This document shows positions 3,270 through 23,813 of a stretch of 64,000 nucleotides of DNA, piece by piece. This DNA comes from Maritimibacter alkaliphilus HTCC2654. Lineage in GTDB: Bacteria; Pseudomonadota; Alphaproteobacteria; Rhodobacterales; Rhodobacteraceae. A program made the position numbers and the translations under genes. The stretch is from NCBI RefSeq assembly GCF_000152805.1, contig NZ_CH902578.1, forward strand, positions 2,011,834 through 2,075,833, read 5' to 3'. Every line of letters begins with the position of its first letter. Within the stretch, counting starts at the first letter, position 1. The notes below the pieces were generated by a model that did no database searches, was not told the origin of the DNA, and worked only from the letters and a program-made list of their open reading frames with translations.

Positions 3270-4496
3270 CTAGGGCAGGATCGAGAGCGGCAATGACCCG
3301 ATCGCGCTGCCCAGACCGGTGGCGTTCGTGACGGCGCTGTCATAGCAGGCAATCGCGTCCCCCGGCAGAAGAAAGGGATCGTAGTCGTCCCGGTCGGCCC
3401 GGCGCATCATGCCTTCGATGTCGCGTTCTACGACGGCGGAAACCCCGGTCATCGGGTTGCGGGTGTAGAGCGCGGCGGAGCGGTGGGCGTTGGTCGTGCG
3501 GGTGCCGCCCACGCAGTTGGTGTCGATCACGGCCTGCATGTAGCGCGTGCCATAGGGCACTTCGCGCACATCCTTGCCGATCGCGGACAGGGCATTGCCC
3601 GCCGCCGGTTGCGTGAGGTTCGACAGGAACAGCGTGATGCCCGGCGGGCTGATCGGACTTGGCACCATCAGGTGATCCTGAAAGCACATGCGGCTGGGCA
3701 CCGTGATTTCGTCCCCGGTCAGGAGCATGATGTCCGCCCGGTCGCGGCCCGTCAGCACTTCGCGCAGGTCGAGGATATAGAGCTGGCCGTTGCGCCGCAG
3801 TTCGACGGCAGACAGGTCTGCATCCGGGCGGATACCGCCTGCGGCCCGGATCGCGTTGGCAAGGTCGCGCGCCTCGGTGGTGGCGCCGAGCGTGTCCTGG
3901 CGGCCCCGGTCGACCTCCCCCCCGTTGACGCCGCCAATCTCGACCGGGCGCGGTTCGAACACCGCCCCAGTCACGCCGACGCTGGCCGCCGCGTAGTCCT
4001 GCAAGCGGACCGAGACCAGCGGGCGGGTGTCGAAATATCCACCGGACATGAGGGCCGAGGCGATGTCCGCCTCGACCTCTTCGATCCGGCGCCCCTGTGC
4101 CACGACCGGGGACAGGTATGGCAGACGGATCACGCCGTCGCGCGAGACCTCGTAACGGTCCGAGAACGTCTCATCCCCCGACACCAGCACCTCGACCAGA
4201 TCGCCGCGCGACAGGAACTCGCCCCGCAACGCGAACACGGCCCCCACCGTGCCCTTGCCGCCTTCGAAGCTGTCGCCGACCTCGCCCCCGCGGGGCGGCA
4301 GACATTTCGAGGCGTTCATGTCGCGGGCGCGCAGGATCGGTGCGTCTTCGCGCGGCGCCGGTTCGCGATACTGTGCCTGATAGGCGTCGCCCTGGGCGAC
4401 CGGTTCGATGTTGTCGTGATCCACGACGGCGGCGCAGGCGGTTAGGCCCAGCGCGGCGGCGCACAGGGCGAGAAGTGGTTTGGGGGCGGTGGTCAT
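3270..4496 (-). CDS. Polysaccharide export outer-membrane lipoprotein (Wza/OMA family)
   Basis: A 408-residue protein with a lipoprotein signal peptide: basic start MTTAPK, hydrophobic core LLALCAAALG and lipobox LTAC, with acylated Cys about residue 21. A Poly_export domain follows (GDLVEVLVSGDETFSDRYEVSRDGVIRLPYLSPV), then SLBB-like beta-grasp segments (VSVRLQDYAAASVGVTGAV). Wza-family proteins form the outer-membrane channel for capsule or exopolysaccharide. It is divergent from the flippase gene, and the shared 204-bp intergenic region holds one of the cluster's palindromic motifs. The likely inner-membrane partner is the PCP protein at 10213-11667. Confidence 0.88.
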   Translation of the reverse strand: MTTAPKPLLALCAAALGLTACAAVVDHDNIEPVAQGDAYQAQYREPAPREDAPILRARDMNASKCLPPRGGEVGDSFEGGKGTVGAVFALRGEFLSRGDLVEVLVSGDETFSDRYEVSRDGVIRLPYLSPVVAQGRRIEEVEADIASALMSGGYFDTRPLVSVRLQDYAAASVGVTGAVFEPRPVEIGGVNGGEVDRGRQDTLGATTEARDLANAIRAAGGIRPDADLSAVELRRNGQLYILDLREVLTGRDRADIMLLTGDEITVPSRMCFQDHLMVPSPISPPGITLFLSNLTQPAAGNALSAIGKDVREVPYGTRYMQAVIDTNCVGGTRTTNAHRSAALYTRNPMTGVSAVVERDIEGMMRRADRDDYDPFLLPGDAIACYDSAVTNATGLGSAIGSLPLSILP

Positions 4497-4582: not shown

Positions 4583-4598
4583 CTACCCTGAAGGATAG
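4583..4598. promoter_or_regulatory. 16-bp palindrome, copy 1 (candidate response-regulator site)
   Basis: CTACCCTGAAGGATAG consists of 7-bp arms matching at 6 of 7 positions around a 2-bp spacer. Its centre lies 94 bp upstream of the export lipoprotein ATG (4496) and 110 bp upstream of the flippase ATG (4701), in the divergent promoter region. Related copies are at 11758, 12525 and 14962. Confidence 0.65.
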
Positions 4599-4700
4599 CG
4601 AGTGATCCGAACGTCCGATCCGGCTCGCCCGTGGCGCGGGAGACAGGCGTCCCGCCAGCGTTCAGAACCGGGACACAACGATCTGAACCCGGACCCCGCC

Positions 4701-5936
4701 ATGCGCCCTGCCCTGCTCAACGCCCCTTTCGCCCGCAATCTTGCGGCCTACGGGGCGTCCGAAGTCGCCGCCAAGGCGTCGCGGATATTCGTGGTCATGG
4801 CGGTGGCGCGCAGTCTGGGCGCCGAGGAAATCGGGATCGCGGCGGCGGCCATGGCGGCCTCGGACATCCTGAAATCGCTTACCGAGAACGGGATCGGTCA
4901 ACGCCTGATCGCCTGCCGCGAAAGCGACCTCGCCGGGTTGGCCCGCACCGCGCTGCGCCTGTTCTGGGTCTGGGCCGTCGCGCTGTTCGTAATCCAGCTC
5001 GCCCTTGGCACGGCTCTCGCTCTCGCCTCCGGCGACGTGATGCTGCTGATCCTCGTCGCCGTGCTCGCGGGCGAGTTCCTGTTCATGCCCGCGGGCCTCG
5101 TTCAGGCCGCGCTTGCGATGCGGGCCGGCAAGCTCAAGCAGACGGCGGCCATCGCCGGGGGACAGGTGGTCGGGGCGAACCTGCTGACGGCCGTTTTGGT
5201 GCTGGTCTGGCCTTCGCCGCTGGCACTCGTCTTGCCGAAACTCCTTTCGGCGCCGATCTGGCTCATCTCTATGCGGCGGCTGCACCCCTGGCGCGCGGAT
5301 CGCGGCGCGCGCTTCGCCCCCATCCGGCCTTTCATCGGCTTCGGCGCGCCCGTGCTGGGGGTCGAAATGGTCAAGGCGCTGCGCCTTCATGCCGACAAGC
5401 TGCTGGTCGGTGCGCTGCTGGGGCCCGAGGCGCTGGGGCTTTACTTCATGGCCTTCAACGCCGGTCTCGGGCTTGCCAATTCGTTTTCCTTCGCCTTCGC
5501 AAGCGTGCTCTTCCCGCATCTAGCGACGGCAGAGGATCGCGCGGGCGCATTGAAACAGGCGTTCCTTATGGGGGCCGGGGTCATCGCGCCGGTCGTGGTG
5601 CTGCAAGCCCTCGCCGCGCCCTACTACGTCCCGATCCTGTTCGGCGACGGATGGGACGGGGTAAGCCACATCGTTTCGATCCTGTGCCTTGCGGCGATCC
5701 CCGGCGTGATCTGGACATCGGCGGCGGGCTGGCTGCGGGCGACGGGACGCCCCGGCATCGAATTCAAGACGACCCTGGGGCTCACCGCCGCCTTGCTCGT
5801 CAACACCGTCCTCATGGCGCCCTTCGGGCTGACGGCCATCGCCGTCGGATACCTCGTGACCGCGACGGTCACCCAACTGATCGCGTCCCTTCCCGCGCTT
5901 GGCGCCGCGTTCTCACCCCATATGCAGGAAGTCTGA
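4701..5936 (+). CDS. Wzx/PST-type polysaccharide flippase
   Basis: A 411-residue multi-spanning membrane protein. It has the MATE/Wzx-like start (FARNLAAYGASEVAAKASRIFVVMAVARSLGAEEIGIAAAAMA) and about 12 hydrophobic helices. Proteins of this type translocate undecaprenyl-pyrophosphate-linked repeat units across the inner membrane. The ATG at 4701 is preferred over an upstream in-frame start at 4602, because the extra 33 residues are polar and overlap the candidate regulatory palindrome. It heads a + strand operon with three glycosyltransferases; the next gene starts 3 bp after its stop. Confidence 0.85.
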   Translation: MRPALLNAPFARNLAAYGASEVAAKASRIFVVMAVARSLGAEEIGIAAAAMAASDILKSLTENGIGQRLIACRESDLAGLARTALRLFWVWAVALFVIQLALGTALALASGDVMLLILVAVLAGEFLFMPAGLVQAALAMRAGKLKQTAAIAGGQVVGANLLTAVLVLVWPSPLALVLPKLLSAPIWLISMRRLHPWRADRGARFAPIRPFIGFGAPVLGVEMVKALRLHADKLLVGALLGPEALGLYFMAFNAGLGLANSFSFAFASVLFPHLATAEDRAGALKQAFLMGAGVIAPVVVLQALAAPYYVPILFGDGWDGVSHIVSILCLAAIPGVIWTSAAGWLRATGRPGIEFKTTLGLTAALLVNTVLMAPFGLTAIAVGYLVTATVTQLIASLPALGAAFSPHMQEV

Positions 5937-5939
5937 CCC

Positions 5940-6863
5940 ATGCCCCGCTTTTCCATCGTCATCCCGGTCTTCAATGCCGAAGCGACCATCGCCGAAACGC
6001 TGGACGCCATCGCCGCCCAGACCGTCGCGGATTGGGAGGTCATATTGGTCGACGACGGGTCGACCGATGGCACCGCCGCGATCCTGCGCGAACGTCTGCG
6101 TGAGGACAGCCGCCTGCGCGCCTTTCGCAATCCCGGCAAGGGGCCGAGTGCCGCGAGGAACTTCGGCGTGTCGAAACCTGCACGGGGCGACATCATCGCC
6201 TTCTGCGACGCGGACGATATGTGGGAGCCGGAAAAGCTTGCGCGCCTCGACCGCATGTTCGCCGATCCGGGCATCGACGCGGCCTATGGTCAGGTCGCGT
6301 TCTTTCCGGGTGACCGACGTGGCGCGATGCGGCGCTCGACGGTGCCGAGCGGCGCTTTGACCGCCGAGATGCTGATGGGCGAAAACCCCGTCTGCACGAT
6401 GTCGAACCTGTCGATCCGGCGCAGCGTCTTTCGGGCACAAGGCGGGCTGGACGAAACGATGGTCTACAACGAAGACCTAGATTTCCTGATCCGTCTGGTC
6501 ACGCGGGGCATCCGGATCGTCGGGGATCCGGCGCTTCACATTCGCTATCGTACGGACAACGGCGGATTGTCGTCGCGGCTGGTGGCCATGCGCGACGGGC
6601 GGCGGGCGGTCCTTGCGCGGGCGAAACGGTCTGGCCTGCGCCCCAGTCGGGCGCAGGAGGCCGTTTTCCTGCGCCACCTCGCCCGCCGCGCCCTGCGCAC
6701 CGAGGACGGCACGCGGGCCGCGCTCCGGTTCGCGCTCGAAGGTCTCGCCACACACCCCCGCGCTTTTCTGTCGCCCGTGCGCCGGGGGCTGGCGACCGCC
6801 GTCGCCGCCCTCGTCTCGCCCGCTCTTCCAAGACCCCTGCGCCGCGCCCTGTTCGCCGCTTGA
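5940..6863 (+). CDS. Glycosyltransferase family 2
   Basis: A 307-residue GT-A enzyme. The N-terminal FSIVIPVFNAEATIAETLDAIAAQT and VILVDDGSTDGT form the nucleotide-binding region, and the metal-binding acidic motif appears as FCDADDMWEPEKL (~residue 83). A later NEDLDFLIRLV motif is consistent with an inverting catalytic base. It adds a sugar from a nucleotide donor to the lipid-linked repeat unit at the cytoplasmic face. Donor and acceptor cannot be told from sequence. It follows the flippase stop by 3 bp, and its paralogue follows 11 bp after its stop. Confidence 0.87.
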   Translation: MPRFSIVIPVFNAEATIAETLDAIAAQTVADWEVILVDDGSTDGTAAILRERLREDSRLRAFRNPGKGPSAARNFGVSKPARGDIIAFCDADDMWEPEKLARLDRMFADPGIDAAYGQVAFFPGDRRGAMRRSTVPSGALTAEMLMGENPVCTMSNLSIRRSVFRAQGGLDETMVYNEDLDFLIRLVTRGIRIVGDPALHIRYRTDNGGLSSRLVAMRDGRRAVLARAKRSGLRPSRAQEAVFLRHLARRALRTEDGTRAALRFALEGLATHPRAFLSPVRRGLATAVAALVSPALPRPLRRALFAA

Positions 6864-6874
6864 AAGGATCGCAC

Positions 6875-7861
6875 ATGCCCTTTGCCTCCATCGTCGTCCC
6901 GGCTTTCAATGTCGAGACCACCCTGTCCGCCACCCTCGCCTCGCTCCTTGCGCAGAGTTTTCGCGACGTCGAGGTGATCGTCGTCGATGACGGCAGCTAC
7001 GACCGCACCTACGAGATCGCCGACTGGTACACGCGCGACAAACGCCTGAAGGTCGTGCGCCAGTCGAACCGAGGACTGGCCGGGGCCCGCAACACCGGGA
7101 TCGCACATGCGACCGGCGAGATCGTGGGCTTCTGCGACTCTGACGATTTGTGGCATCCCGAAAAGCTCGCGGCCCATGTCGATTTCCTGCGTGCCAACCC
7201 CTCTGTCGGGTTGAGCTATTCGGGGTCGCAACTGATCGACGATGCCGGGGAACCCACCGGGCTTTTCCAACGACCGAAAATGCGCGGCGTCACCCCGGCG
7301 CACCTGTTCCGCCGCAATCCGGTGGGCAACGGGTCCGCCCCGGTCATGCGCCGCGCGGCGCTGGAGGATCTGGCCTTCCGCCCGGCCATCGAAAAGGTGC
7401 GCGACTGGGTGTTCGATGAAACCTTCGCCCAGTCCGAAGATATCGAATGCTGGATGCGTCTCGCCCTGACGACCGAGTGGGAGGTGGCTGGCCTGCGCGC
7501 GCCCCTGACGCTCTACCGGGTGAATGGCGCGGGCCTGTCAGCCGGGACCGAACGGCAGCTTGCAAGCTGGGAGCGGATGGTGACCAAGTTGAGCACAATC
7601 GACCCGGCCTTCATCGCGCGCCATGCCCCTGCGGCTCGCGCCTATCAGTTGCGCTACCTTGCCCGCCGCGCGGTGAGCGCGCGCGACGGTGGTCGCGCCC
7701 GGGCGCTTTCGTCCCGGTCGCTGTCCACGTCGCTGCATCCGCTTTTCTTCGAGCCGCTCAAGACGATCACCACCCACGCGGCGGCACTGGCGCTGGACCT
7801 GTCCGGTCCGCGCGTGGTCACCGCTGCCGAGACCGCGCTTCGGCGCGCGCGCAACAACTGA
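6875..7861 (+). CDS. Glycosyltransferase family 2
   Basis: A 328-residue GT-A glycosyltransferase beginning MPFASIVVPAFNVETTLSATL. It has VIVVDDGSYDRT and the acidic metal site FCDSDDLWHPEKL, plus a downstream QSEDIECWMRL motif as catalytic-base candidate. It is clearly paralogous to the preceding gene and probably arose by duplication. The start at 6875 has a GAAAGGA ribosome site at 6862-6868; the TTG at 6860 upstream overlaps the previous stop and is less likely. The predicted role is extension of the exopolysaccharide repeat unit. Confidence 0.87.
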   Translation: MPFASIVVPAFNVETTLSATLASLLAQSFRDVEVIVVDDGSYDRTYEIADWYTRDKRLKVVRQSNRGLAGARNTGIAHATGEIVGFCDSDDLWHPEKLAAHVDFLRANPSVGLSYSGSQLIDDAGEPTGLFQRPKMRGVTPAHLFRRNPVGNGSAPVMRRAALEDLAFRPAIEKVRDWVFDETFAQSEDIECWMRLALTTEWEVAGLRAPLTLYRVNGAGLSAGTERQLASWERMVTKLSTIDPAFIARHAPAARAYQLRYLARRAVSARDGGRARALSSRSLSTSLHPLFFEPLKTITTHAAALALDLSGPRVVTAAETALRRARNN

Positions 7862-7876
7862 CAAAGGCACACCGGC

Positions 7877-8881
7877 ATGACGACCATCGCACATCTTGTC
7901 GACGACACGACCCCGGGCGGGGTCATGCGCGTCATCGAGCACATCCAGCGGGATGCGGACATGGCCCGCCTGGCCCGCCACCGCATCATCCCGCTGCCGC
8001 GCACGGGTTGGGCCGTTCCGCGTGTCGAGGCCGACCTGATCGTCTCACACCTGTCGCTGAACTGGCGGCGGTTGCCGTGGCTCATGCAGCTTCGGGCCAT
8101 CCATTCGGGCACGCCGATGGTGCATGTCGAACACAGCTACACCGCCGCCTTCGCGCGACACAACGTGGCGCGCATGGGCCGGTTCTCAACGATGCTACGG
8201 ATCTCGTTCTCGCTGTTCGAACGCATCGTCGCGGTGAGCGAGGCGCAGGCCACATGGATGGTGGAAAAAGGTCTGGCCGACGCCGAACAGATCGAGGTGA
8301 TCGCATCGGCCATCGACGTGGCACCGTTTCTTGCGCTGCACCCCATCCAGAAGGCGCCCCGCGTGATCGGTGCCTTTGGCCGTTTTGAACCGCAGAAGGG
8401 TTTCGACACGCTGATCGCCGCGATGCGGGCCAGTCCGCGACAGGATCTCGAGCTTCGCCTTTTTGGCGACGGCGGCGAACGCGAGGCGCTGGTCGCGCTG
8501 GCGGCTGGTGACCCCCGCATCCGGTTCATGGGCCACGTGTCCGACCCGGCCCGCGCGATGGGCGAGGTCGAAGCGGTCGCGATGCCGTCAAGGTGGGAGG
8601 CCTATGGCCTTGTCGCGCTCGAAGCCCGCGCCGCCGGGCGCGTGCTGCTCGTATCGAATGTTGACGGCCTGCGCGACCACGCCTCAGCCGGTGCGACACT
8701 CGTGCGCGATGGCTCGGTGCGTGGCTGGACGGCCGCGCTCGACGGGTTGGACACGCCCGACATGGTCGCGATCAAGCGGGCGCGCGTCGACGCGTCCGAG
8801 GCGACGCATTGGTTCGCCGAATGCTGGGAGCGGCTGGTGGAAACGCTTCTGAAAGACAAGGAAACTGCGCACGCGGCATAA
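7877..8881 (+). CDS. Glycosyltransferase family 4 (GT-B fold)
   Basis: A 334-residue glycosyltransferase. The C-terminal Rossmann half is well formed: VIGAFGRFEPQKGFDTLIAAM, LELRLFGDGGEREAL, then the donor-binding segment VEAVAMPSRWEAYGLVALEARAAGRVLLV, in which the E-x7-E motif (EAYGLVALE) identifies a retaining GT4 enzyme. The N-terminal half is short, with HVEHSYTAAF as acceptor-side candidate. It is the last gene of the flippase/glycosyltransferase operon, followed by a strong terminator. Confidence 0.85.
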   Translation: MTTIAHLVDDTTPGGVMRVIEHIQRDADMARLARHRIIPLPRTGWAVPRVEADLIVSHLSLNWRRLPWLMQLRAIHSGTPMVHVEHSYTAAFARHNVARMGRFSTMLRISFSLFERIVAVSEAQATWMVEKGLADAEQIEVIASAIDVAPFLALHPIQKAPRVIGAFGRFEPQKGFDTLIAAMRASPRQDLELRLFGDGGEREALVALAAGDPRIRFMGHVSDPARAMGEVEAVAMPSRWEAYGLVALEARAAGRVLLVSNVDGLRDHASAGATLVRDGSVRGWTAALDGLDTPDMVAIKRARVDASEATHWFAECWERLVETLLKDKETAHAA

Positions 8882-8905: not shown

Positions 8906-8940
8906 GGCCGCGCCTCGGGCAACCGGGCGCGGCCATTTTT
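8906..8940 (+). terminator. Rho-independent terminator of the glycosyltransferase operon
   Basis: A perfect 9-bp GC stem, GGCCGCGCC (8906-8914) with GGCGCGGCC (8926-8934), is followed by ATTTTT. It sits 25 bp after the GT4 stop and overlaps the end of the convergent membrane-protein gene. Confidence 0.85.
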
Positions 8941-10216
8941 ATGTGCGGTCGGGTCTGTCGTCCGCCATTTCGCGGGCATGAAGCCCGAGGATCATGAGGC
9001 CGGGCCAGAGCATGTAGGCTTCGATCTCGACGTTCTCGCCGAAGCTGAGAAGGATCAGGGTCATCATGATCCCCAGCGGCAGCCGACCCCGCGGCCCGCG
9101 TGCCGCGTCGACAAGCGCGAGGCCGGTTTGCCACAGCATCGGCACGAGGAGGGCCAGAAATCCGACGAGCCCTTTGACGAACAAAAGCCCCCACCAGGTG
9201 TGGTGACTGCCGATCGGCATGTATTCCACGATATGCGGTCCCGGCTCGGGCCTGCCGTGACCGAACCAGAACGCCTCGTTCCGCCAGCGTTCGCCCGCGA
9301 TGCGCTGAAGCGTCGCCCTGACTCGCGTGCTGTCGGCGCGCGCGTCCTTGAAGGTGCGCACGGCATCCGACGCGATGCGCGCCACGGCCGGGCCGATCAC
9401 GGCGAACGAGGCGGCAATGCCAGCACCCACCTTCCACGCCCAGCTTTTCGCAATGAGCGGCATGGCGCGGGGAACCACCGTGCAGGCGACCAGACCAACA
9501 AGGCCCATGCGCGATTTCGACGCGAAGATCATCACCATCGCTGCGGTCAGGCCGATGGTGCGCCAGCGTTTATCGCGTTCCTCGAGCGCGAACAGGGCGA
9601 GGACGACACCCAGCAAGGCCGCGAAGGGCGACCATGGCGCGTAGAACTGCCAACGCGGGGTCCAGCTTGCCGGATCCCAGGTGAAAAAGAAGACGCTGAA
9701 ATACTCCGGTCCGGGACCACCCACGGCCTTGAGCGGCGAGGTGAAGATGCGTTCCGGCAGGCCGACATAGGGGGCGGCGATCAGGATCGGCGTCAGGATC
9801 AGCGTCCAGAGCGCGATCTTCATCTGGCCCCGCACGTAGACCTCGCGCCGGATCGGCAGGACCGCGCCCGCCAGCGGAAACAGCGCCATGAGCGCCCAGC
9901 CCTTCGCCCAGCCGATTGTCGACTTGATGGTCGCGCCCATGCCGTAGGACCAGTTGACGTGGCCGACCCAGAGCGCGACGAGCATGACGACCATGCCCAG
10001 CATCCACGCCCAGACGACGGGCGGAATGCGGCCCGTCGCGCGCAGATCGGGCCGGATCGCGGGTCCGAGGTAAAGCGACAGGCCGGCAAGACCCGCCAGT
10101 ATCCACCCCAGCACCGGCCCGACGACATAGAGCGCCCCGATCCCGTAGAAAGCCCAGGTCAGCGCCTGAGTCCGGTAGACGATCCGCTCGGCCGGGTTGG
10201 CGGGCGTCACGTTCAC
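8939..10216 (-). CDS. O-antigen ligase / Wzy-type polymerase membrane protein
   Basis: A 425-residue integral membrane protein with about 10-12 predicted helices and a large extracytoplasmic loop between ~residues 150 and 200 (PERIFTSPLKAVGGPGPEYF). The Wzy_C/O-antigen-ligase hallmark region SKSRMGLVGLVAC is followed by later helices. Such proteins polymerise undecaprenyl-linked repeat units (Wzy, ExoQ) or ligate them to lipid A (WaaL); sequence alone does not separate these, but the PCP partner argues for polymerisation. The start is GTG at 10216, overlapping the stop of the upstream PCP gene (GTGA), which implies translational coupling. Confidence 0.8.
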   Translation of the reverse strand: MNVTPANPAERIVYRTQALTWAFYGIGALYVVGPVLGWILAGLAGLSLYLGPAIRPDLRATGRIPPVVWAWMLGMVVMLVALWVGHVNWSYGMGATIKSTIGWAKGWALMALFPLAGAVLPIRREVYVRGQMKIALWTLILTPILIAAPYVGLPERIFTSPLKAVGGPGPEYFSVFFFTWDPASWTPRWQFYAPWSPFAALLGVVLALFALEERDKRWRTIGLTAAMVMIFASKSRMGLVGLVACTVVPRAMPLIAKSWAWKVGAGIAASFAVIGPAVARIASDAVRTFKDARADSTRVRATLQRIAGERWRNEAFWFGHGRPEPGPHIVEYMPIGSHHTWWGLLFVKGLVGFLALLVPMLWQTGLALVDAARGPRGRLPLGIMMTLILLSFGENVEIEAYMLWPGLMILGLHAREMADDRPDRT

Positions 10217-11667
10217 GGTGCGGGCTTTGCGAGCAGGCGATTGATGAGCGGCCTGCGCATCCAGCCGAGTGCGAGGCCCATGAAGAGCATCAGCGTCGCC
10301 GCGATCCCCGCGGCGAGGGCGAGTTTCTTGCGCGGCGATGACGGCTGGTCGGGCAGGTTCGGGTCTTCGAGCACCTGAACCAGCGGGTAGGAGGCATAGA
10401 GGTCCGACTTGGTGGTCTGCGCCCGCGCCATCGCCGAGGCGAAAACCGCCTCGGCCACCTGAAAATTGCGTTGCAGGTCTTCAAGCCGCGCGGCGGGTTC
10501 CAGAAGCGCGGCGGTCTTCGCCTCGTCCGCCGCGAGTTGCGCGGCCAGCGTAGCATGTTCGGCAGCCAGCCCCTGCCGGGCGGCATCGTATTCCACGAGC
10601 CGGGCGAGCAGGTCCGCACGGCCCCCGACCGGGGCAAGGTCGAGGGCGTCGAGCTGATCCGCGCTCAGGCCTGTGATGCGCCCCGCGCGCCTGCGCGCTT
10701 CGGCCAGCGTCGCTTGGTACTTCGTGCGGATGCCCACTCGCTCGGGATGGTTCGCGCCGTATTGCTGGGCCGCCATCGCCAAGGCGGCGGACTGCTCGGC
10801 CATCTGATCGGCCAGCGCCGCAAACTCGCTGTCGGCGTGAAGCTTGATCGTGGCCGCAGCCAGCGTCGGAGAGATCGCGAGTGAGGCGACCAAGGCATCG
10901 ACCTGCCGTGTCTGTTCGTCCAAGTCGGTTTCGAGGTCGAGCACGCGGCGACGCAGCGCATCGGTTTCCGAGACGATCTGCTCATACTGTCCCGCCGAGA
11001 CGAGCCCGGTTTCGCGCTGAAGCGCCTCCATCTCGGCGCGGGTCGCGGCGACCGAGGCGCGGAATTCCTCGATCGCACCCTCGCCGCTGGTTTCGCGTGT
11101 GCCCAGTTCGTCCGCACGCAGCGCATCGAGTTCTTCGAAGAAGGCCGCGATCAGCGCATCCCCGCGTTCCTGCGCGGCGATGGGCGACCCGGCGGTGATC
11201 GAAAGCTGGATCATCCCGGTCTGGTCGATCAGTTGCACCTGTGGCGATCCGAAATCGGCCCGGCTCGTCCCCACCGTTTCGGCCGCGTGCGCGATGATCC
11301 GATCCGCACCGATCAGGCGTTTATAGGTGACGGTCGGGCTGACGGAATTGTTGGCGAAGGGCGAACTGGCATGGGACGAGGCCTGCCCGATGCTGTCCAG
11401 CGTGACCGACGCGGACGCGCCCGAGCCGGGCAGGATAAGGACGGCCTGAGACGTGTAGCGGGCCGGTGCGGTCGCGAGGTAGCCCAGGATCGGTGCCCAG
11501 ATCAGCGAGGTGGCCAGAAGCGTGATGCCGATGTAGCGGGGAAGGCGCCCGGCGTCGTCGATGCGACCGCCAACAAGCACCCGGCCGATGCTGGCTTTGC
11601 CGATCGGGGTCCGGATCGGGCGCAGATGACGCAGAACGGTCGAAAACTCTCGGGGTCGCGCGAACAT
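10213..11667 (-). CDS. Polysaccharide co-polymerase / chain-length determinant (Wzz/GumC type)
   Basis: A 484-residue protein with an N-terminal transmembrane helix (~46-66, YIGITLLATSLIWAPILGYL), a long periplasmic coiled-coil region (~100-440, rich in Ala/Glu/Arg/Leu heptads) and a C-terminal helix (~453-473) preceded by the proline-rich DQPSSPRKK typical of PCP proteins. No C-terminal tyrosine-kinase domain is present, so any BY-kinase would be elsewhere. It should link the polymerase to the Wza-type channel. The ATG at 11667 has a GAAGGAG site. A palindromic candidate operator lies ~98 bp upstream. Confidence 0.87.
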   Translation of the reverse strand: MFARPREFSTVLRHLRPIRTPIGKASIGRVLVGGRIDDAGRLPRYIGITLLATSLIWAPILGYLATAPARYTSQAVLILPGSGASASVTLDSIGQASSHASSPFANNSVSPTVTYKRLIGADRIIAHAAETVGTSRADFGSPQVQLIDQTGMIQLSITAGSPIAAQERGDALIAAFFEELDALRADELGTRETSGEGAIEEFRASVAATRAEMEALQRETGLVSAGQYEQIVSETDALRRRVLDLETDLDEQTRQVDALVASLAISPTLAAATIKLHADSEFAALADQMAEQSAALAMAAQQYGANHPERVGIRTKYQATLAEARRRAGRITGLSADQLDALDLAPVGGRADLLARLVEYDAARQGLAAEHATLAAQLAADEAKTAALLEPAARLEDLQRNFQVAEAVFASAMARAQTTKSDLYASYPLVQVLEDPNLPDQPSSPRKKLALAAGIAATLMLFMGLALGWMRRPLINRLLAKPAP

Positions 11668-11757: not shown

Positions 11758-11773
11758 CTATCCGGTCGGATAG
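11758..11773. promoter_or_regulatory. 16-bp palindrome, copy 2 (candidate response-regulator site)
   Basis: CTATCCGGTCGGATAG has perfect 7-bp inverted arms with a 2-bp spacer. It lies between the response-regulator stop (11783) and the PCP gene start (11667, 98 bp from the centre). It would control the PCP/polymerase unit independently of the regulator gene. Confidence 0.75.
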
Positions 11774-11782: not shown

Positions 11783-12394
11783 TCAGTAAAGCCCGGCTTC
11801 ACGCGCGACGAGCGCCGCCTGCGTCCGGTTGTTGACGTCGATCTTGCGATAGAGCGTCTTGAGATAAAGCTTGATGGTCGGTTCGGTCAGGTCGAGATCG
11901 CGGGCGATTTCCTTGTTCGACTTGCCTTCGGTCAGGCCCTTCAGAACCTGCATCTCGCGTTCGGCCAGCTTTTCGGCCAGCGGATGCTTCGCCTCTTCCT
12001 TGGCGGTCATGAAATCGACGGGCACGTATTGCTCGCCCATCGCCATGAAGCGCACGGCGTTGACCAGCGACTTGGCCGACAGCGTCTTCGGCAGGAAACC
12101 GGCGGCGCCGAGGTCGAGCGCCTGTTGCGCGATCTCGCGCGTGGCCGTGCCGGTGATGAGGGCGACGCGCTGGTCGCCGCCGATCTTCATCGCCCGCTCC
12201 AACCCGTCGATCCCGTTCATGCCCGGCATGTTCAGATCGAGCAGGACGAGGTCGAAGGGTTCGCTTTGCTCCATAAGCGCAATCGCACCGTCGTAATCCG
12301 CAGCCGTTTCCGTCTCGAAACCGCTGGCGGCTTCGAGAAAGGCGACGAGCGTGTCGCGCAACAGGTCATGGTCATCGGCAATCAGGATACGCAT
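11783..12394 (-). CDS. NarL/LuxR-family response regulator
   Basis: A 203-residue protein. The receiver domain (1-~120) has the acidic pocket D7/D8, phosphoacceptor D53 in LVLLDLNMPG, T84 in the ITGTAT segment and K in FLPK. The C-terminal GerE helix-turn-helix (~138-200) reads LAEREMQVLKGLTEGKSNKEIARDLDLTEPTIKLYLKTLYRKI. ATG at 12394 is chosen because the in-frame extension upstream is basic and precedes the canonical MRILIADDHD start. It is the only free-standing response regulator in the window. The palindrome at 12525 lies 138 bp upstream of it, suggesting autoregulation. Likely target: the EPS cluster. Confidence 0.9.
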   Translation of the reverse strand: MRILIADDHDLLRDTLVAFLEAASGFETETAADYDGAIALMEQSEPFDLVLLDLNMPGMNGIDGLERAMKIGGDQRVALITGTATREIAQQALDLGAAGFLPKTLSAKSLVNAVRFMAMGEQYVPVDFMTAKEEAKHPLAEKLAEREMQVLKGLTEGKSNKEIARDLDLTEPTIKLYLKTLYRKIDVNNRTQAALVAREAGLY

Positions 12395-12524
12395 GGTGCG
12401 ATAAGCTCTTTTTTGTCGGGGCCGTCCCTTTCGCAAAGGAAATCGGCCAAAATTTGGCAGCGGTGCCAGCTCGTCTCATTAAATCGCGAGTTAATTTAGC
12501 GCAAACGGTCATTCGCGGCGTCCG

Positions 12525-12540
12525 CTATCCGATCGGATAG
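12525..12540. promoter_or_regulatory. 16-bp palindrome, copy 3 (candidate response-regulator site)
   Basis: CTATCCGATCGGATAG is a perfect 16-bp palindrome. It lies in the divergent region between the response regulator (ATG 12394) and the WecG/priming-transferase gene (ATG 12680), 138 and 147 bp from the respective starts. Confidence 0.78.
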
Positions 12541-12679
12541 TCGCCGATACCCGCTGGCTTGGCAACGCGTCCCTTCGGACGGATGGTGCCTCCGTTCAGG
12601 CTTGGGGGCTGTCCGCCTGTTCGCTGGAAATGAGGAAGGCCGACAAGCAGAAACTCTGTAATTCAAGGAGTTATCTGCC

Positions 12680-14038
12680 ATGCACCACGATCACGCCGCT
12701 TTCGCCCTACCTGCCCCGGAACCGCTCACGACCGTTCGTCTGTTCGACTTCGACGTCGTTTCGGAATCGGGCGACCGGGTCGTCGACCACCTGCTCGCCC
12801 CGGGGCGGCGGCGGGTTCATTTCGTCAATGCGCATTGCATCAACCTCGCCGCGCGCGACCTGTCCTATGCCCGTGCCCTGCGCTCGGCGGACGTGGTTCT
12901 GCCCGATGGTGCGGGCATCGAACTGGCGTTCCGCGCGGTCGGGCACCGGATGGCCGAGAACCTGAACGGCACCGATTTCGGCCCTCGCCTGCTTGCCGAG
13001 GCGGCCGGACGCGGTAAATCGGTGTTCCTGTTCGGCGGGCGCCCCGGCACGGCGGACGCTGCGGCGGCGCGTCTCGCCCGCGACATCCCCGGTCTGGTCA
13101 TCGCGGGCACCCGCGACGGATACGAGGGCGCGCGCGATACCGAGGCCGCGATCCGGGCGATCAACGCGTCGGGCGCCGACATTCTGATGGTCGCCATGGG
13201 CGTGCCGCTTCAGGACCAGTGGATCGCGGATCATGGCGACGACCTTACCCCACCCCTGACGCTCGGCGTCGGCGCGCTGTTCGATTTCCTCGCGGGCAAC
13301 GTCTCGCGCGCGCCGCGCCTGTTGCGGAAAGTGCGCGGCGAATGGCTGTGGCGACTGGCCGTGGAACCGCGGCGGATGTTTCGGCGGTACGTGATCGGCA
13401 ATCCCGAATTCCTGTTCCGCACTCTGGGTCTGATCGCGCCGCACACCATCGCGAAGCGTGCGTTCGATCTGCTGGTCGCGGGCGCGGTGATCCTTGCCCT
13501 GTCTCCGCTGTTCGCGCTCACCGCGTTGGCGATCAAAGCCGATACGCGCGGGCCGGTGTTCTTTCGCCAGACCCGTGTGGGGCGCAACGGCCAGCCGTTC
13601 AGCATGCTCAAATTCCGCTCGATGGCGGTGGATGCCGAGGCGCGGCGCGATGCCCTGCTCGCAACTTCGGACCGCAGCGGCGTGTGCTTCAAGTCCCGGA
13701 CCGACCCCCGTGTCACGCGCGTCGGTCGCCTCCTGCGCCGTTATTCCATCGACGAGCTGCCGCAGGTCTTCAACGTGCTCACGGGCGATATGTCCATCGT
13801 CGGGCCCCGCCCGGCCCTGCCGAACGAAGTCGCCGCCTATCCGCCGCGCGCCCTTGGGCGGCTCGCAGTCAAACCCGGTCTGACTGGCGTCTGGCAGGTG
13901 TCGGGGCGTGCCGAGATCGGGTTCGACAAGATGGTCGACATGGACATCGCCTATGCCCGGACCCGGTCGGTGCTGCTCGACGCCGTTCTGCTCGCCCTCA
14001 CCTTTCGCGCCGTCCTGACCGGGCGCGGCGCTTACTGA
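12680..14038 (+). CDS. WecG/TagA glycosyltransferase fused to priming sugar-phosphate transferase
   Basis: A 452-residue two-domain fusion. Residues ~30-230 are WecG/TagA/CpsF family (HFVNAHCINLAARD, VVLPDGAGIELAF, NGTDFGPRLL, GVPLQDQWIADH, GVGALFDFLAGNVSRAPRLLRK). Residues ~255-452 are a polyisoprenyl-phosphate hexose-1-phosphate transferase (KRAFDLLVAGAVILALSPLFALTALAIK, then GPVFFRQTRVGRNGQPFSMLKFRSM, RRYSIDELPQVFNVLTGDMSIVGPRP). The C-terminal half would start the repeat unit on undecaprenyl phosphate and the N-terminal half could add the second sugar. AAGGAG at 12665-12670 is the ribosome site. GalU follows 23 bp downstream. Confidence 0.9.
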   Translation: MHHDHAAFALPAPEPLTTVRLFDFDVVSESGDRVVDHLLAPGRRRVHFVNAHCINLAARDLSYARALRSADVVLPDGAGIELAFRAVGHRMAENLNGTDFGPRLLAEAAGRGKSVFLFGGRPGTADAAAARLARDIPGLVIAGTRDGYEGARDTEAAIRAINASGADILMVAMGVPLQDQWIADHGDDLTPPLTLGVGALFDFLAGNVSRAPRLLRKVRGEWLWRLAVEPRRMFRRYVIGNPEFLFRTLGLIAPHTIAKRAFDLLVAGAVILALSPLFALTALAIKADTRGPVFFRQTRVGRNGQPFSMLKFRSMAVDAEARRDALLATSDRSGVCFKSRTDPRVTRVGRLLRRYSIDELPQVFNVLTGDMSIVGPRPALPNEVAAYPPRALGRLAVKPGLTGVWQVSGRAEIGFDKMVDMDIAYARTRSVLLDAVLLALTFRAVLTGRGAY

Positions 14039-14061
14039 CGCTTCAATCAAGGAGATTTTTC

Positions 14062-14949
14062 ATGTCCCACATTCGCAAAGCCGTCTTTCCCGTCGCCGGT
14101 CTCGGCACCCGTTTCCTGCCCGCGACCAAATCGGTCCCGAAGGAAATGCTGCCTCTCATTGACCGCCCCCTGATCCAATACGCCATCGACGAGGCGCGGG
14201 CCGCCGGGATCGAAGAGTTCATCTTCGTGACCGCTGCGGGGAAAGGAGCGCTCGAGGATTATTTCGATACCGCCGAAATGCTGGAAACGCGACTCGCCGC
14301 GTTGGACAAGCATGACCTGCTCGCCCGACTGGAGCAGACGCGGCTGGGCGAAGGCGCTCTGACCATCCTGCGGCAGGACAAGCCGCGTGGGTTGGGCCAT
14401 GCCGTGCGCGTCGCCCGCAAGGCGGTTGGGGACGAGCCGTTCGCGGTCCTCCTCCCCGATGACGTGATCCGCGCGGGGCGCCCGGCCTTGGCGCAGGTGA
14501 TCGCCGCCCATGCCGAAACCGGGGGGCATATGGTGGCGACGATGGAGGTCGCGAAACCTGACGTGTCCAAGTACGGCGTGCTGGCGGTTCAGTCCACGAC
14601 CGGGCGGTTGTCGCGCGCAAGCGGCATGGTCGAAAAGCCGCGGCCCGAGGTCGCGCCATCGCGTGAGGCCGTGGTGGGCCGCTATATCCTCGCCCCGTCG
14701 ATCTTCGACCGTCTCGCGATGATCGCGCCCGGCGCCGGAGGGGAGCTGCAACTGACCGACGCGATCAACGCGGATGCCGCGTCGGTCCCGGTGCACGGCT
14801 ATGCCTTCGAAGGGACGCGCTATGATTGCGGGTCGCAGGCCGGGTTCGTCGCGGCAACGATCGCCTATGCGATGGACCGGCCCGAACTTGCCGCTTCGGT
14901 CCATGACGAGCTTGCGCGGTGGAACCGGCCGGCCGCACTTGCGGGCTGA
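14062..14949 (+). CDS. galU: UTP-glucose-1-phosphate uridylyltransferase
   Basis: A 295-residue GalU making UDP-glucose from UTP and glucose-1-phosphate. The nucleotidyltransferase signature AVFPVAGLGTRFLPATKSVPKEML is at the N-terminus. IDRPLIQYAIDEA, GLGHAVRVARK, FAVLLPDDVI and the C-terminal YDCGSQAGFVAATIAYAM complete the family pattern. ATG at 14062 has CAAGGAG 7-13 bases upstream. UDP-glucose feeds the priming transferase encoded just before it, and Ugd encoded at 40682. Confidence 0.95.
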   Translation: MSHIRKAVFPVAGLGTRFLPATKSVPKEMLPLIDRPLIQYAIDEARAAGIEEFIFVTAAGKGALEDYFDTAEMLETRLAALDKHDLLARLEQTRLGEGALTILRQDKPRGLGHAVRVARKAVGDEPFAVLLPDDVIRAGRPALAQVIAAHAETGGHMVATMEVAKPDVSKYGVLAVQSTTGRLSRASGMVEKPRPEVAPSREAVVGRYILAPSIFDRLAMIAPGAGGELQLTDAINADAASVPVHGYAFEGTRYDCGSQAGFVAATIAYAMDRPELAASVHDELARWNRPAALAG

Positions 14950-14961
14950 TCTCAGGGCGCA

Positions 14962-14977
14962 CTATCCGAACGGGTAG
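14962..14977. promoter_or_regulatory. 16-bp palindrome, copy 4 (candidate response-regulator site)
   Basis: CTATCCGAACGGGTAG has 6 of 7 arm positions matching around a 2-bp spacer. A second partial copy (GCTATCCCGAA) follows immediately at 14981. The centre is 87 bp upstream of the ATG at 15057, so the sensor gene pair (15057-18167) would be under the same control as the EPS genes. Confidence 0.65.
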
Positions 14978-15056
14978 TGCGCTATCCCGAAGCCCGTTTC
15001 GGATGGGACGAAACGTGCGATACATGGACAGCGTCGGAAAAACGGAGGTTGTCTTC

Positions 15057-15581
15057 ATGTTCACCACTCACGGACCCATCGCCCGCGGGGTCGTCGTGGC
15101 AGCACTCACGGTCGCTGCCCCACTTTCGGGCATGGCGGATGACCTTCCGCAACCGACCGGCGATGTCGTCCTCCGCGTGACCGGCGACATCGCCGTCACC
15201 AATGCCGAAGGCGCGGCGGTCCTCGACACCCAAATGCTTGCCGACATCGGCGAGACCACCTTTTCGACGACGACGATCTGGACCGAGGGCGAACAGAGCT
15301 TCACCGGCGTCGAACTCGAAGACCTGCTCGACGCACTCGGCGTCGACGGCGGCATGCTCGAAGCCCGCGCGCTGAACGACTACATGGTCGAAATCCCGGT
15401 CTCCGATGCGGTCGAAGGCGGCCCGATCATCGCCTATCTGCGCAACGGCGAACCGATGTCCATCCGCGACAAGGGGCCGCTCTGGATCGTCTACCCGTAT
15501 GATCTAAACACCGACTATGCCAGCGAACTGATCTATTCGCGCAGCATCTGGCAACTGGACCGGATCGAAGTGGTCCGCTAA
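15057..15581 (+). CDS. Periplasmic sulfite-oxidase/Moco-fold protein lacking the cofactor cysteine
   Basis: A 174-residue protein with an N-terminal signal peptide (GVVVAALTVAAPLSGMA, cleavage about residue 26). The rest resembles the oxidoreductase molybdopterin-binding fold: QSFTGVELEDLLDALGV, YMVEIPVSDAVEGGPIIAYLRNGEPM, KGPLWIVYPYD, SRSIWQLDRIEV. No cysteine occurs anywhere, so the usual molybdenum thiolate ligand is missing and catalysis by the normal route is unlikely. It ends 42 bp before the hybrid kinase gene, which suggests a ligand-binding or accessory sensor role. The start at 15057 is chosen for the signal peptide; an upstream in-frame start exists. Confidence 0.75.
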   Translation: MFTTHGPIARGVVVAALTVAAPLSGMADDLPQPTGDVVLRVTGDIAVTNAEGAAVLDTQMLADIGETTFSTTTIWTEGEQSFTGVELEDLLDALGVDGGMLEARALNDYMVEIPVSDAVEGGPIIAYLRNGEPMSIRDKGPLWIVYPYDLNTDYASELIYSRSIWQLDRIEVVR

Positions 15582-15623
15582 CACCTCGGGCGGGCAAAGA
15601 CCCACCCGTTTCGACAGGTCGCC

Positions 15624-18167
15624 ATGCCGTTCACCCGTCGCCACCGTTACCTGCGCACGCTCGCAATCGCCGCATTGGCCATCGCGGGCGTCGTCGTGTC
15701 GGTGGCCCTTGGTGGCGAGGTTCTGCGCAAGCTTCGGCTGCTCGAAACGGCCGCATCCGACAACATCCAATGGACCCTGTCGCAGGTCGAGGTCGAATAC
15801 CTAGACCTCGCCATCGCAATCGAGCAATTCCAACTCGGCCGGACCGACGACCTCGACACCGTCCGGCGCGAGTTCGACATCTTCTACAGCCGTATCCGGA
15901 CCCTGTCGGAGGGCGATCTTTATGCCGGACTGCGCGAACAGCCTGCTTTCGCCCGCCAGCTTTCCGTCATCCGGGATTTCCTCGATACCTCCGTGCCGCT
16001 GATCGACGGTGCGGATGACGCTCTGGCCCGAGAACTCCCCGTTCTTTTCGAGGATATGCTCGACACCCGCACCACCGTGCGCGAACTGGCGGCGACGGGG
16101 CTGGGCTATTTCGCCCAACAGGCCGATCTGCGGCGCGAGGAGATCGCCGACACGCTGTTCTATCTGGCGATCCTGACCATCGTGGTCCTGACCGGCCTTT
16201 TCGCGGCCTCGGTCGTTCTGTTCCGTTTGAACCGCAGCAACGAGGCGCGCGCGCGCACCATCGAAGCGGCCTCGCGCCGGATGGAGACCATCGTCAACAC
16301 CTCGCTCGATGCCATCGTCGTCTCGAACCGGACGGGGCGCATCATCGCATTCAACGACGCGGCCGAAATCATCTTCGGCTACAAGCGTGAACAGGTGATC
16401 GGGCAACTGATGAGCGAGATCATCGTGCCGCCGCATCTGCGCAATGCCCATGAGGCCGGCATGGAGCGGTTTCGCACGACCGGAGAAAAGCGGGTGATCG
16501 GTCAGGGGCGGATCAAGCTGGAAGCGATGCGGTCGGACGGGTCGGTCTTTCCGGCGGAAATGGCCATCGAGTCCGCCGAGGGCAGCGACGGCGAGATTTT
16601 CGTCGGCTACCTGCGCGACATTTCGCACCGGGTCAAAGCCGAGACCGACCTCGTGGAAGCCCGCGACAAAGCCGTGGCGGGCGAAAAGGCGAAGTCGGAA
16701 TTCCTGGCCGTCATGAGCCATGAAATGCGCACCCCCCTGAACGGTCTGCTCGGCACGCTGGCCTTGCTCAAGGGCACCAAGCTGTCTGCGAAACAGGCGC
16801 AATATGTCGACAATCTCGAGGTGTCCGGGGGCCTGCTGCTGACCCATATCAACGACGTGCTCGACGTGACGAAATACGAAGCGGGCAAACTCGACGTCGA
16901 TTTCGTGCCGACCGACCTGTCGGCGCTCGTGCGAAGCGTCGTCGACAACCAGCGCGACCTCGCCTCGGCCTCTGAAAACACGATCGAATGGTCCTGGGTC
17001 GGCAAGCCGCTGCCGCCTGTCATGACCGACCCGCAGCGCCTGCGGCAGGTCCTTATCAACCTCGTCGGCAATGCGGTGAAATTCACGCGCGGTGGGCGCA
17101 TCCGGATCGAGATCGGCGCGGTGCCGCAAGGCGGTGGGGCCGATGTGACGATCACGGTCTCGGACACCGGGATCGGTATCGCACCCGAGGATATCGACAG
17201 GCTGTTCGAGGATTTCGAGACCGGCGACCGATCCTATGGACGGGCCCGCAACGGCACCGGTCTGGGCCTTGGCATCGCGCGGCGTCTGACGCGGGCGCTT
17301 GGCGGCACGATCGGCGCGGAAAGCGAGCTTGGCGAAGGCAGCACCTTCTGGATCGACCTGCCGCTCGATTACGCAAGCGATCCCGTCGAGACCGGGACCA
17401 AGACCAAGCTTCCGGCCCGGCCCGCACAGGCGCAATCGATCCTCGTCATCGAGGACAACGAGATCAACCGCACGGTTCTGCGTGAAATGCTCATCGCGGA
17501 CGGGCATCGGGTGGTCGAGGCCGAGGATGGTCTGCAAGGCGTTCATCTGGCGCAGTCGGCGGCCTTCGACCTGATCCTGATGGATATTTCCATGCCCGTG
17601 CTCGACGGCGTGGCGGCAACGGAACTGATCCGGTCGACGCCGGGGCCGTGCCAGACCGCGCGCATCGTCGCGGTGACCGCGCATGTCATGCCGGGGGAGG
17701 TGTCGCGGTTCACCGAGGCCGGGATGAACGGCGTCCTGTCCAAGCCCATCGACCGCGCGAGGCTGCGCCAGCTTCTTGTCGCGCAGGAGACCACGACCGA
17801 ACCGGCACTGTCCGAGACCGGCCTCGTCGATCCGGGGCGTTTGGCGGAATTCCGGTCGGAAATCGGCGACGACCTGTTCGCCAAGTTGCGCCAGACCTTC
17901 GTCGATGACGGCGACGCGCTGGTCGCCATGCTGTCGGCAGGGGGCGAAGGCCCGACCCAAGTCGCGGACCGCTGTCACAAGATGGCGGGCGCGGCGGCGA
18001 TCTTCGGAGCGGGCCCGCTTCGCGAGGCGCTCAAGACGACCGAAAGCGCGTGCCGCGAAGGCGTTTCCGAGGGTCGTCTTGCCGATCTGATCGCCACGCT
18101 CGTGCCCTTGTGGGCCGACACCCGCAAGGCGGTCCTGTCCGACACGGGCGCCCCTGTTGCACTCTGA
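15624..18167 (+). CDS. Hybrid sensor histidine kinase (PAS-HisKA-HATPase-REC-HPt)
   Basis: An 847-residue membrane kinase. TM1 spans ~10-30 and is followed by a periplasmic, mostly helical sensor region (~35-180). TM2 is ~182-205 (LFYLAILTIVVLTGLFAASVVLF). The PAS domain is ~225-345 (METIVNTSLDAIVVSNRTGRI). HisKA carries His366 in VMSHEMRTPLNG. HATPase_c has N, G1 (DTGIGI) and G2 (GTGLGLGIA) boxes. The receiver has Asp654 in LILMDISMP, and the C-terminal HPt has His785 in CHKMAGAAAIFG. This phosphorelay needs a separate output regulator; the LuxR-type regulator at 11783 is the nearest candidate. The downstream LacI gene is probably independent. Confidence 0.9.
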   Translation: MPFTRRHRYLRTLAIAALAIAGVVVSVALGGEVLRKLRLLETAASDNIQWTLSQVEVEYLDLAIAIEQFQLGRTDDLDTVRREFDIFYSRIRTLSEGDLYAGLREQPAFARQLSVIRDFLDTSVPLIDGADDALARELPVLFEDMLDTRTTVRELAATGLGYFAQQADLRREEIADTLFYLAILTIVVLTGLFAASVVLFRLNRSNEARARTIEAASRRMETIVNTSLDAIVVSNRTGRIIAFNDAAEIIFGYKREQVIGQLMSEIIVPPHLRNAHEAGMERFRTTGEKRVIGQGRIKLEAMRSDGSVFPAEMAIESAEGSDGEIFVGYLRDISHRVKAETDLVEARDKAVAGEKAKSEFLAVMSHEMRTPLNGLLGTLALLKGTKLSAKQAQYVDNLEVSGGLLLTHINDVLDVTKYEAGKLDVDFVPTDLSALVRSVVDNQRDLASASENTIEWSWVGKPLPPVMTDPQRLRQVLINLVGNAVKFTRGGRIRIEIGAVPQGGGADVTITVSDTGIGIAPEDIDRLFEDFETGDRSYGRARNGTGLGLGIARRLTRALGGTIGAESELGEGSTFWIDLPLDYASDPVETGTKTKLPARPAQAQSILVIEDNEINRTVLREMLIADGHRVVEAEDGLQGVHLAQSAAFDLILMDISMPVLDGVAATELIRSTPGPCQTARIVAVTAHVMPGEVSRFTEAGMNGVLSKPIDRARLRQLLVAQETTTEPALSETGLVDPGRLAEFRSEIGDDLFAKLRQTFVDDGDALVAMLSAGGEGPTQVADRCHKMAGAAAIFGAGPLREALKTTESACREGVSEGRLADLIATLVPLWADTRKAVLSDTGAPVAL

Positions 18168-18205: not shown

Positions 18206-18220
18206 TTGAAATGTTTTCAA
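18206..18220. promoter_or_regulatory. LacI-type operator, autoregulatory site
   Basis: TTGAAATGTTTTCAA is a 15-bp near-palindrome (arms 6 of 7). It lies 30 bp upstream of the proposed GTG start of the LacI gene and resembles the operator at 19233. An ATG inside it (18211) is in frame with the LacI gene but is more probably part of the operator. Confidence 0.6.
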
Positions 18221-18249
18221 GTCACCTCCCAGCAGAGGGCGAGGATCAC

Positions 18250-19236: not shown

Positions 19237-19247
19237 AAATTTTTCAC
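19233..19247. promoter_or_regulatory. LacI-type operator upstream of the hisD-like/SDR operon
   Basis: TTGAAAATTTTTCAC contains the perfect 13-bp palindrome TGAAAATTTTTCA (centre 19240). It overlaps the LacI stop codon and lies 71 bp upstream of the ATG at 19318. It shares the TTGAAA..TTTTCA core with the site at 18206. Confidence 0.7.
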
Positions 19248-19317
19248 GCTCAGTGGTCACCCTTGCCCGATCCGCGATGCTGCCGCTAGGTGAAGGCGAC
19301 GAAGTGGAGGACATCGC

Positions 19318-20646: not shown

Positions 20647-21398
20647 GCGCGCCGGATTTCTCGCTTTCGGGCAAGCGCGCCTTGGTGACGGGCGCGGGCC
20701 GGGGGATCGGCCGCGCGATCGCCGAGGCCTACGCCGCCGCCGGGGCCGAGGTCACGCTCTGCGCCCGGACGGGCGCGGAGGTCGAGGCCGTGGCCAAGGC
20801 GCTCACCGATCAGGGGTTCAAGGCGGACGCGATGGTCGCGGACGTGACCGACATCGCGGGCTTCGCCGCCCTCATCGCCCAGCGCCCCGCCTTCGACGTC
20901 TTCGTGAACAACGCAGGCACCAACCGGCCCAAGCCCTTGTCCGATGTGAGCGAGGACGACTACGACGCGGTCATCGACCTGAACGTCAAAGCCGCGATCT
21001 TCGCGGCGCAGGCGGTGTCGGCCAAGATGGTCGAGAACGGCACCAAAGGGTCGATCATCAATATGTCCTCCCAGATGGGTCACGTCGGCGCGGCCAATCG
21101 CACGCTCTATTGCGCGTCGAAATGGGCCATCGAAGGTTTCACCAAGGCGCTGGCGGTGGAACTGGGACCGAAGGGCATCCGCGTGAACACGATCTGCCCG
21201 ACTTTCATCGAAACCCCGATGACCAAACCGTTCTTCGAGGATCCGGCGTTTCTGGACAGCGTGTTGGCCAAGATCAAGCTGGGGCGCATCGGGCAAGTGG
21301 GCGATATCACGGGCGCCGCCGTGTTCCTCGCCTCGGACGCCTCCGGACTGATGACCGGAAGTGCAATGATGCTGGACGGGGGGTGGACGGCCGACTAA
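20643..21398 (+). CDS. Short-chain dehydrogenase/reductase (classical SDR)
   Basis: A 251-residue enzyme. The nucleotide-binding motif TGAGRGIG is at residues 16-23, NNAG follows ([11 protein letters not shown]), and the catalytic Ser/Tyr/Lys appear as MSSQMG and YCASK. The C-terminus [15 protein letters not shown] is typical of the family. The start codon overlaps the stop of the HisD-like gene (ATGA), so the two are translationally coupled and probably act on the same polyol or sulfonated polyol substrate. An HpsO/HpsP-like racemising role is possible but unproven. Confidence 0.88.
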
Positions 21399-21407
21399 GC
21401 CGCCCGC

Positions 21408-22493: not shown

Positions 22494-22496
22494 CTC

Positions 22497-23813
<1,317 letters not shown>

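Follow-up and report, generated by a model that had tools for sequence, protein, structure and literature searches.

A predicted pterin-responsive phosphorelay and its candidate exopolysaccharide regulator in Maritimibacter alkaliphilus HTCC2654

The stretch analysed here, referred to as the window, comprises 64,000 nucleotides of the genome of Maritimibacter alkaliphilus HTCC2654 (contig NZ_CH902578.1, positions 2,011,834 to 2,075,833). It contains a two-gene unit encoding a PruR-type protein and a hybrid sensor kinase of the DTB type, a NarL/FixJ-type response regulator (RR) and several copies of a palindrome. An exopolysaccharide (EPS) cluster of the wzx/wzy type surrounds the RR gene, with the genes for a WecG-sugar transferase fusion and GalU preceding the pruR-kinase unit. 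A preliminary description of this DNA had listed the RR, a Moco-fold protein, the hybrid kinase and the palindromes, and all of them were found at the positions it gave. Based on sequence comparisons, we consider it very probable that these elements form a pterin-responsive HK-REC-HPt phosphorelay that feeds an EPS transcription factor, the neighbouring NarL-type RR.

Sensor protein and hybrid kinase

The sensor protein has no Cys in its translation and scores 29.5 bits with PF00174 (Oxidored_molyb; cut-off 24), which agrees with its earlier description as a cysteine-free Moco-fold sensor. Its sequence matches PruR of Agrobacterium tumefaciens (PDB 7kos; E 1.2e-32, 41% identity) and the Klebsiella pneumoniae homologue 7rkb (E 9.3e-33). 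The predicted fold (predicted local distance difference test, pLDDT, 88) is of the SUOX type and superposes on 7kos with a TM-score of 0.93 and a root mean square deviation of 1.2, while sulfite oxidases match it far less well than 7kos does. Y109 and W165, located in the Tyr and Trp regions of the pterin pocket, are invariant across an alignment of 17 homologues and probably correspond to Tyr104 and Trp160 of 7kos. The N-terminus carries a hydrophobic stretch, as judged by eye. On the basis of its sequence and modelled fold, the sensor is assigned to the PruR-type pterin-binding proteins, pterin binding itself being predicted. The possibility of a molybdenum-cofactor enzyme or sulfite oxidase was rejected, given the absence of cysteine and the closest similarity to pterin-binding PruR and not to catalytic SUOX proteins. 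Elsewhere in the genome, an SDR with the motif TGX3RXG (G000:C4:1921707-1922438, locus L201) scores above the cut-off of NCBIfam NF006597, with pteridine reductase as the next-best match. It is a FolM/PruA-like reductase and a candidate PruA of this organism, which is consistent with the synthesis of a tetrahydropterin ligand.

The kinase gene lies directly downstream of pruR, and its product shows the features of DTB kinases, with a kinase core and a periplasmic domain of ~190 aa that carries WX7E (W50-E58). This domain, accompanied by two transmembrane helices, is predicted to be helical (pLDDT 93). Comparison with solved sensor structures gave nothing significant, the weak matches being NarQ-like and other helical bundles (best E 0.04). 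A domain scan identified PAS, HisKA, HATPase and REC followed by a C-terminal HPt, and neither GGDEF nor EAL, so the kinase does not belong with the DcpA-type diguanylate cyclases/phosphodiesterases. The HPt around His785 had been proposed before; its Pfam Hpt score of 22.9 bits is just below the cut-off of 24.6, but the signature H-x-x-[ASV]-G follows REC in 37 of 37 readable RR-linked kinases (36 by pattern and that of L112, with Val, by eye), and a single shuffled tail in the whole set contains the motif by chance. We accepted the HPt because of this conservation of the His signature, rather than by its Pfam score. Among NCBIfam models the TorS hmm was the best match, with all TorS and GacS/BarA-type models far below their cut-offs. 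By its sequence features, we classify the protein as a PruR-linked DTB kinase of the unorthodox HK-REC-HPt type.

A linked response regulator and its putative operator

The RR contains REC and GerE domains, as in the NarL/FixJ family, and D53 is invariant in the alignment. Given that its closest paralogue in this genome is 36% identical, its orthology can be traced safely. A similarity search with this RR found no second free-standing regulator in the window, in line with the earlier remark that it was the sole one. To survey linkage, 248 genomes of the family (approximately one per genus) were searched with the RR and with PruR, and distances were computed; the counts given here are among the matches listed for the two proteins. 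An RR ortholog lay within 5 kb of 71 of the 86 PruR genes that were at least 50% identical, and the linked RR-PruR pairs, found in 79 genomes, were divergent in 87 of 90 cases, the median distance between the two genes being 369 bp. The chance expectation for this linkage is ~0.0025 per gene pair. The preliminary description proposed to check whether the three genes co-occur across Rhodobacteraceae and held that its circuit would be refuted by a sensor-kinase pair routinely lacking the RR and the palindromes in other genomes; within this subfamily the pair does not routinely lack them.

Linkage was rarer for divergent sensors: of the PruR proteins with less than 45% identity, 5 of 40 were linked to an RR and 35 were without it. 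For unlinked PruR with at least 48% identity, the RR was encoded elsewhere in the genome in 15 of 17 cases. Most PruR loci without RR have kinases of other architectures that lack HPt, and in several a different receiver is encoded in tandem. An HPt-like tail is kept in three of them (L065, L073 and L150), and a distant NarL-type regulator adjoins the latter two. A change in kinase architecture thus tends to go along with a change of partner. Loci L066, L068, L069, L071 and L074 encode a distant PruR and plain kinases without HPt; behind several of these kinases comes a tandem receiver protein of a different sort. These loci may represent a second kind of pterin two-component system.

The palindrome CTATCCGNNCGGATAG (CTATCC-N4-GGATAG) occurs as perfect copies at 11758 and 12525, with one mismatch at 14962 and in degenerate form at 4583. 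The same palindrome thus precedes the kinase operon and EPS operons, as noted previously. No further perfect site exists in the 4.54-Mb genome. When up to two mismatches were allowed genome-wide, 20 matches were obtained for the palindrome vs 23 for a control pattern; given this lack of enrichment, information within this single genome can be drawn only from the better sites, and a regulon prediction at two mismatches was not used. A one-mismatch site at C4:168945 was rejected as a regulon member, being inside an open reading frame.

In RR-containing loci, where operator matches were counted at up to two mismatches, the target intergenic DNA (32 kb) contained 40 and the remaining 954 kb contained 14, an ~85-fold enrichment at the RR, pruR and EPS operon promoters, and five control palindromes of the same composition gave 0 matches in the target intergenic DNA. 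A motif-free search of all 6-N(0-10)-6 dyads placed CTATCC-N4-GGATAG at the top, with 16 of 26 loci against a shuffled maximum of 8. It came out on top again, tied with CTATAC-N4-GTATAG, when a second, non-overlapping set of loci selected for having no consensus match was searched (9 of 27 against a shuffled maximum of 5). The operator was found upstream of pruR in 24 of 35 RR-linked loci, at a stereotyped distance, and upstream of wzz, wecG and wzx in 9/10, 9/10 and 8/10 cases, respectively. At other RR loci it flanks genes for Poly_export, a nucleotide-sugar dehydrogenase and GMP_PMI (GDP-mannose synthesis). In 11 RR-bearing genomes, we counted 15 perfect sites, 11 of them at RR, PruR or EPS loci, vs 2 in 13 genomes chosen without PruR. 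Four perfect sites of relatives outside such loci (G005:C1, G008:C7, G013:C58 and G032:C2) had no evident EPS genes nearby and were left unassigned. At PruR loci without RR, no operator was seen. A chance palindrome was rejected by the control patterns, the de novo search and phylogenetic recurrence.

A weaker second copy lies 20 bp downstream of the pruR site, also in relatives (z ~4-5), and weaker repeat-copy signals occur at +20/21 and +41/42 in EPS promoters. Given that ~20 bp corresponds to two helical turns, this spacing might tentatively reflect tandem, cooperative binding on one DNA face.

Besides the RR-less PruR loci, two further configurations separate these elements. In genome G013, the RR and PruR-DTB share one contig, and the EPS cluster, located on another contig (L193, C43) with neither of them, keeps two operators; it may represent a natural case of trans-regulation. 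In L113, the EPS cluster, RR and operators are present, and a multi-PAS hybrid kinase with a FIST protein stands in place of PruR-DTB. The features of the Maritimibacter locus are compiled in Table 1.

Table 1. Genes and putative operator sites of the locus (window coordinates)
Feature	Position	Strand	Remarks
Wza-like polysaccharide export lipoprotein	3270..4496	(-)	divergent from wzx; synteny; function read from sequence, without a family scan of this copy
Degenerate putative operator CTACCCTGAAGGATAG	4583..4598	(.)	flanked by the wza-like and wzx-like genes; relatives have a stronger copy
wzx-like flippase and three glycosyltransferase genes	4602..8881	(+)	follows the 4583 site; synteny conserved; function read from sequence, without a family scan
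Wzy/O-antigen-ligase-like membrane protein	8939..10216	(-)	no Pfam match; assigned by position and conservation
Wzz/GNVR chain-length determinant-like protein, putative target	10213..11667	(-)	weak family scores and synteny
Putative operator CTATCCGGTCGGATAG	11758..11773	(.)	upstream of wzz-like gene; perfect copy
NarL/FixJ-type RR, proposed output regulator	11783..12394	(-)	203 aa; REC and GerE HTH; D53 phosphoacceptor
Putative operator CTATCCGATCGGATAG	12525..12540	(.)	divergent RR/wecG-transferase promoter region; perfect copy
WecG/TagA glycosyltransferase fused to polyprenyl-P sugar transferase (EPS initiation), putative target	12680..14038	(+)	family profile matches
GalU UTP-glucose-1-P uridylyltransferase-like protein, putative target	14062..14949	(+)	family profile matches
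Putative operator CTATCCGAACGGGTAG	14962..14977	(.)	upstream of pruR-kinase; one mismatch; weaker second copy ctatcccgaagccc begins 20 bp downstream
PruR-type pterin-binding protein, predicted periplasmic	15057..15581	(+)	174 aa; cysteine-free; Y109 and W165 conserved
DTB-type hybrid sensor kinase	15624..18167	(+)	847 aa; transmembrane helix, helical periplasmic domain with WX7E (W50-E58), transmembrane helix, PAS, HisKA, HATPase, REC, HPt (H785)

Window positions 61-2547, at the edge of the EPS cluster, encode a large protein of the secreted type that contains FG-GAP-like and RTX-like calcium-binding repeats. RTX-like proteins also adjoin the RR in L111 and L142 and occur near a perfect operator in L194. 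On the other side, positions 18211-26043 encode a LacI regulator, a histidinol-dehydrogenase-like enzyme, an SDR, a ferredoxin reductase, a Rieske oxygenase and an FMN oxidoreductase, apparently an unrelated catabolic island resembling sulfonate and betaine degradation genes.

Predicted phosphorelay and competing explanations

Protein identities, conserved linkage, the HPt, and the enrichment and placement of the operator were computed directly; from there, we infer the ligand, the direction of phosphate flow, the binding of the operator by the RR and the sign of its effect on EPS. Reduced pterin bound by PruR in the periplasm would alter the kinase's helical periplasmic domain, and phosphate would then pass from the His of HisKA to the Asp of REC, to His785 of the HPt and finally to Asp53 of the RR. 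The RR would bind CTATCC-N4-GGATAG at the EPS operons, at its own gene and at pruR-kinase, and the putative operators at the last two would imply feedback. By analogy with A. tumefaciens, we would guess that reduced pterin lowers matrix production.

Several points weigh against this proposal. All support is computational, and the HPt scores under the Pfam threshold. Among the RR loci, 31 of 53 have no recognisable operator upstream of the RR gene itself, and EPS genes are present in only a minority of RR loci. The linkage is also incomplete, since 15 of the 86 close PruR genes are unlinked to an RR (nearly all of the genomes concerned encode it elsewhere) and four DTB kinases adjoin the RR with no PruR found (L120, L128, L130 and L140); these kinases may have lost PruR or may use a distant one. 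Finally, the RR is not exclusive to pterin input, as it also occurs without PruR/DTB, beside FIST-linked or other hybrid kinases.

In L106, L110, L111, L113, L119 and L133, the RR lies beside multi-PAS hybrid kinases (some with GAF) that end in REC, and a FIST (NosP-like) protein was confirmed in L111 and L113. In the RR tree, FIST-kinase-linked members occupy several separate places among the PruR-DTB-linked ones, a pattern suggesting that the input kinase was exchanged repeatedly. The sequences also suggest that one EPS regulator can be wired to different sensors in different lineages. Whether this extends to a widespread Rhodobacteraceae-type EPS master regulator with its own operator code and interchangeable redox-type inputs, mostly PruR-DTB and elsewhere FIST (NosP-like) kinases, is in our judgement evenly balanced. 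On that reading, pterin signals would act on matrix synthesis through transcription itself, with c-di-GMP playing no part. Two Rhodobacteraceae-like loci occur in Bacillota-labelled records, L113 (WNWL01000003.1, 'Oceanobacillus') and L122 (CP059262.1, 'Exiguobacterium'), and probably reflect contamination or mislabelled assemblies.

The alternative that survives best accepts that the kinase and the RR are partners controlling EPS but holds that the signal is not pterin, with the PruR-like protein binding another small molecule or serving as a structural partner. We consider it unlikely, if still to be reckoned with, given that a 2026 review of the PruR-DTB field describes the in vivo ligand as unsettled even for A. 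tumefaciens PruR (PMC13259868) and that some RR-linked DTB kinases lack PruR. Against it stand the 41% identity and TM-score of 0.93 to a structure described as that of a pterin-binding protein, the invariant Tyr and Trp regions of the pocket and the encoded PruA-like reductase.

Improbable, in our view, is that another regulator binds the palindrome, be it the LacI protein encoded at 18211 or some unlinked factor, and that the linked RR has other targets. The motif is a generic dyad and the kinase gene is followed directly by one of LacI type; however, the LacI homologue shows no conservation across the loci, and the operator tracks the RR with or without EPS genes, even where PruR is replaced (L113), and is absent from RR-less PruR loci. 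We find it just as doubtful that the kinase acts chiefly through another receiver, such as a diguanylate cyclase pathway like that of A. tumefaciens DcpA, with the RR as a minor branch. HPt domains can feed several receivers and the best-studied PruR system runs through cyclic di-GMP (c-di-GMP), but this kinase has no GGDEF or EAL domain and one regulator type is linked in 79 genomes among the matches listed. That the kinase and RR are functionally unlinked, their gene order being just the trace of an EPS island passed on en bloc, is very improbable: nine PruR-linked loci do share the EPS cluster, but the divergent trio of RR, pruR and kinase has a much wider distribution than the cluster (26 PruR-DTB loci lack it vs 9 with it), and the cluster can be detached from the trio (L193).

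Known systems and wider meaning

Returning to the proposed pterin phosphorelay, the preliminary description knew of no account of this combination. The sensor-kinase pair is in fact published: the 2026 review gives the same features, with a Ruegeria kinase as example, and reports PruR-DTB kinases as widespread in Proteobacteria (PMC13259868). What goes beyond the pair is the output, as that review makes no mention of a response regulator for PruR-DTB kinases, a negative limited to that review. The Ruegeria pomeroyi system (WP_011045932, PMC13259868; PDB 7KOS for PruR) shares the two-gene arrangement, the cysteine-free SUOX-fold PruR (here predicted to be periplasmic) and a PAS-HisKA-HATPase-REC kinase with a helical periplasmic domain containing WX7E. 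The review shows REC as the last domain of the R. pomeroyi kinase, whereas in the Maritimibacter kinase an HPt follows REC, and a candidate RR, operator and EPS targets can be named.

The PruA-PruR-DcpA system of A. tumefaciens is similar in its PruR homologue, WX7E-type partner domain, polysaccharide/biofilm output and PruA-like reductase in the genome, although its output is a diguanylate cyclase/phosphodiesterase rather than the phosphorelay to a transcription factor proposed here. The TorT-TorS-TorR and GacS/BarA-type unorthodox phosphorelays likewise have a tripartite His-Asp-His kinase and a periplasmic protein (predicted as such here) encoded upstream of the kinase; TorT-TorS-TorR differs in its ligand protein and in the OmpR-type partner of TorS, which is NarL-type here. 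The FIST-linked NosP-NosK-NosR system (PMC12570481) resembles the related genomes in which a FIST protein and a multi-PAS hybrid kinase adjoin the RR orthologue, but FIST is cytoplasmic and PruR predicted to be periplasmic, and the published NosR output is HD-GYP, not HTH.

The proposal would provide orphan pterin-linked kinases with a partner, target genes, a DNA operator and a phosphate route whose HPt is absent from the published figure of the domains, and the question of what these kinases control becomes testable in an ordinary marine isolate.

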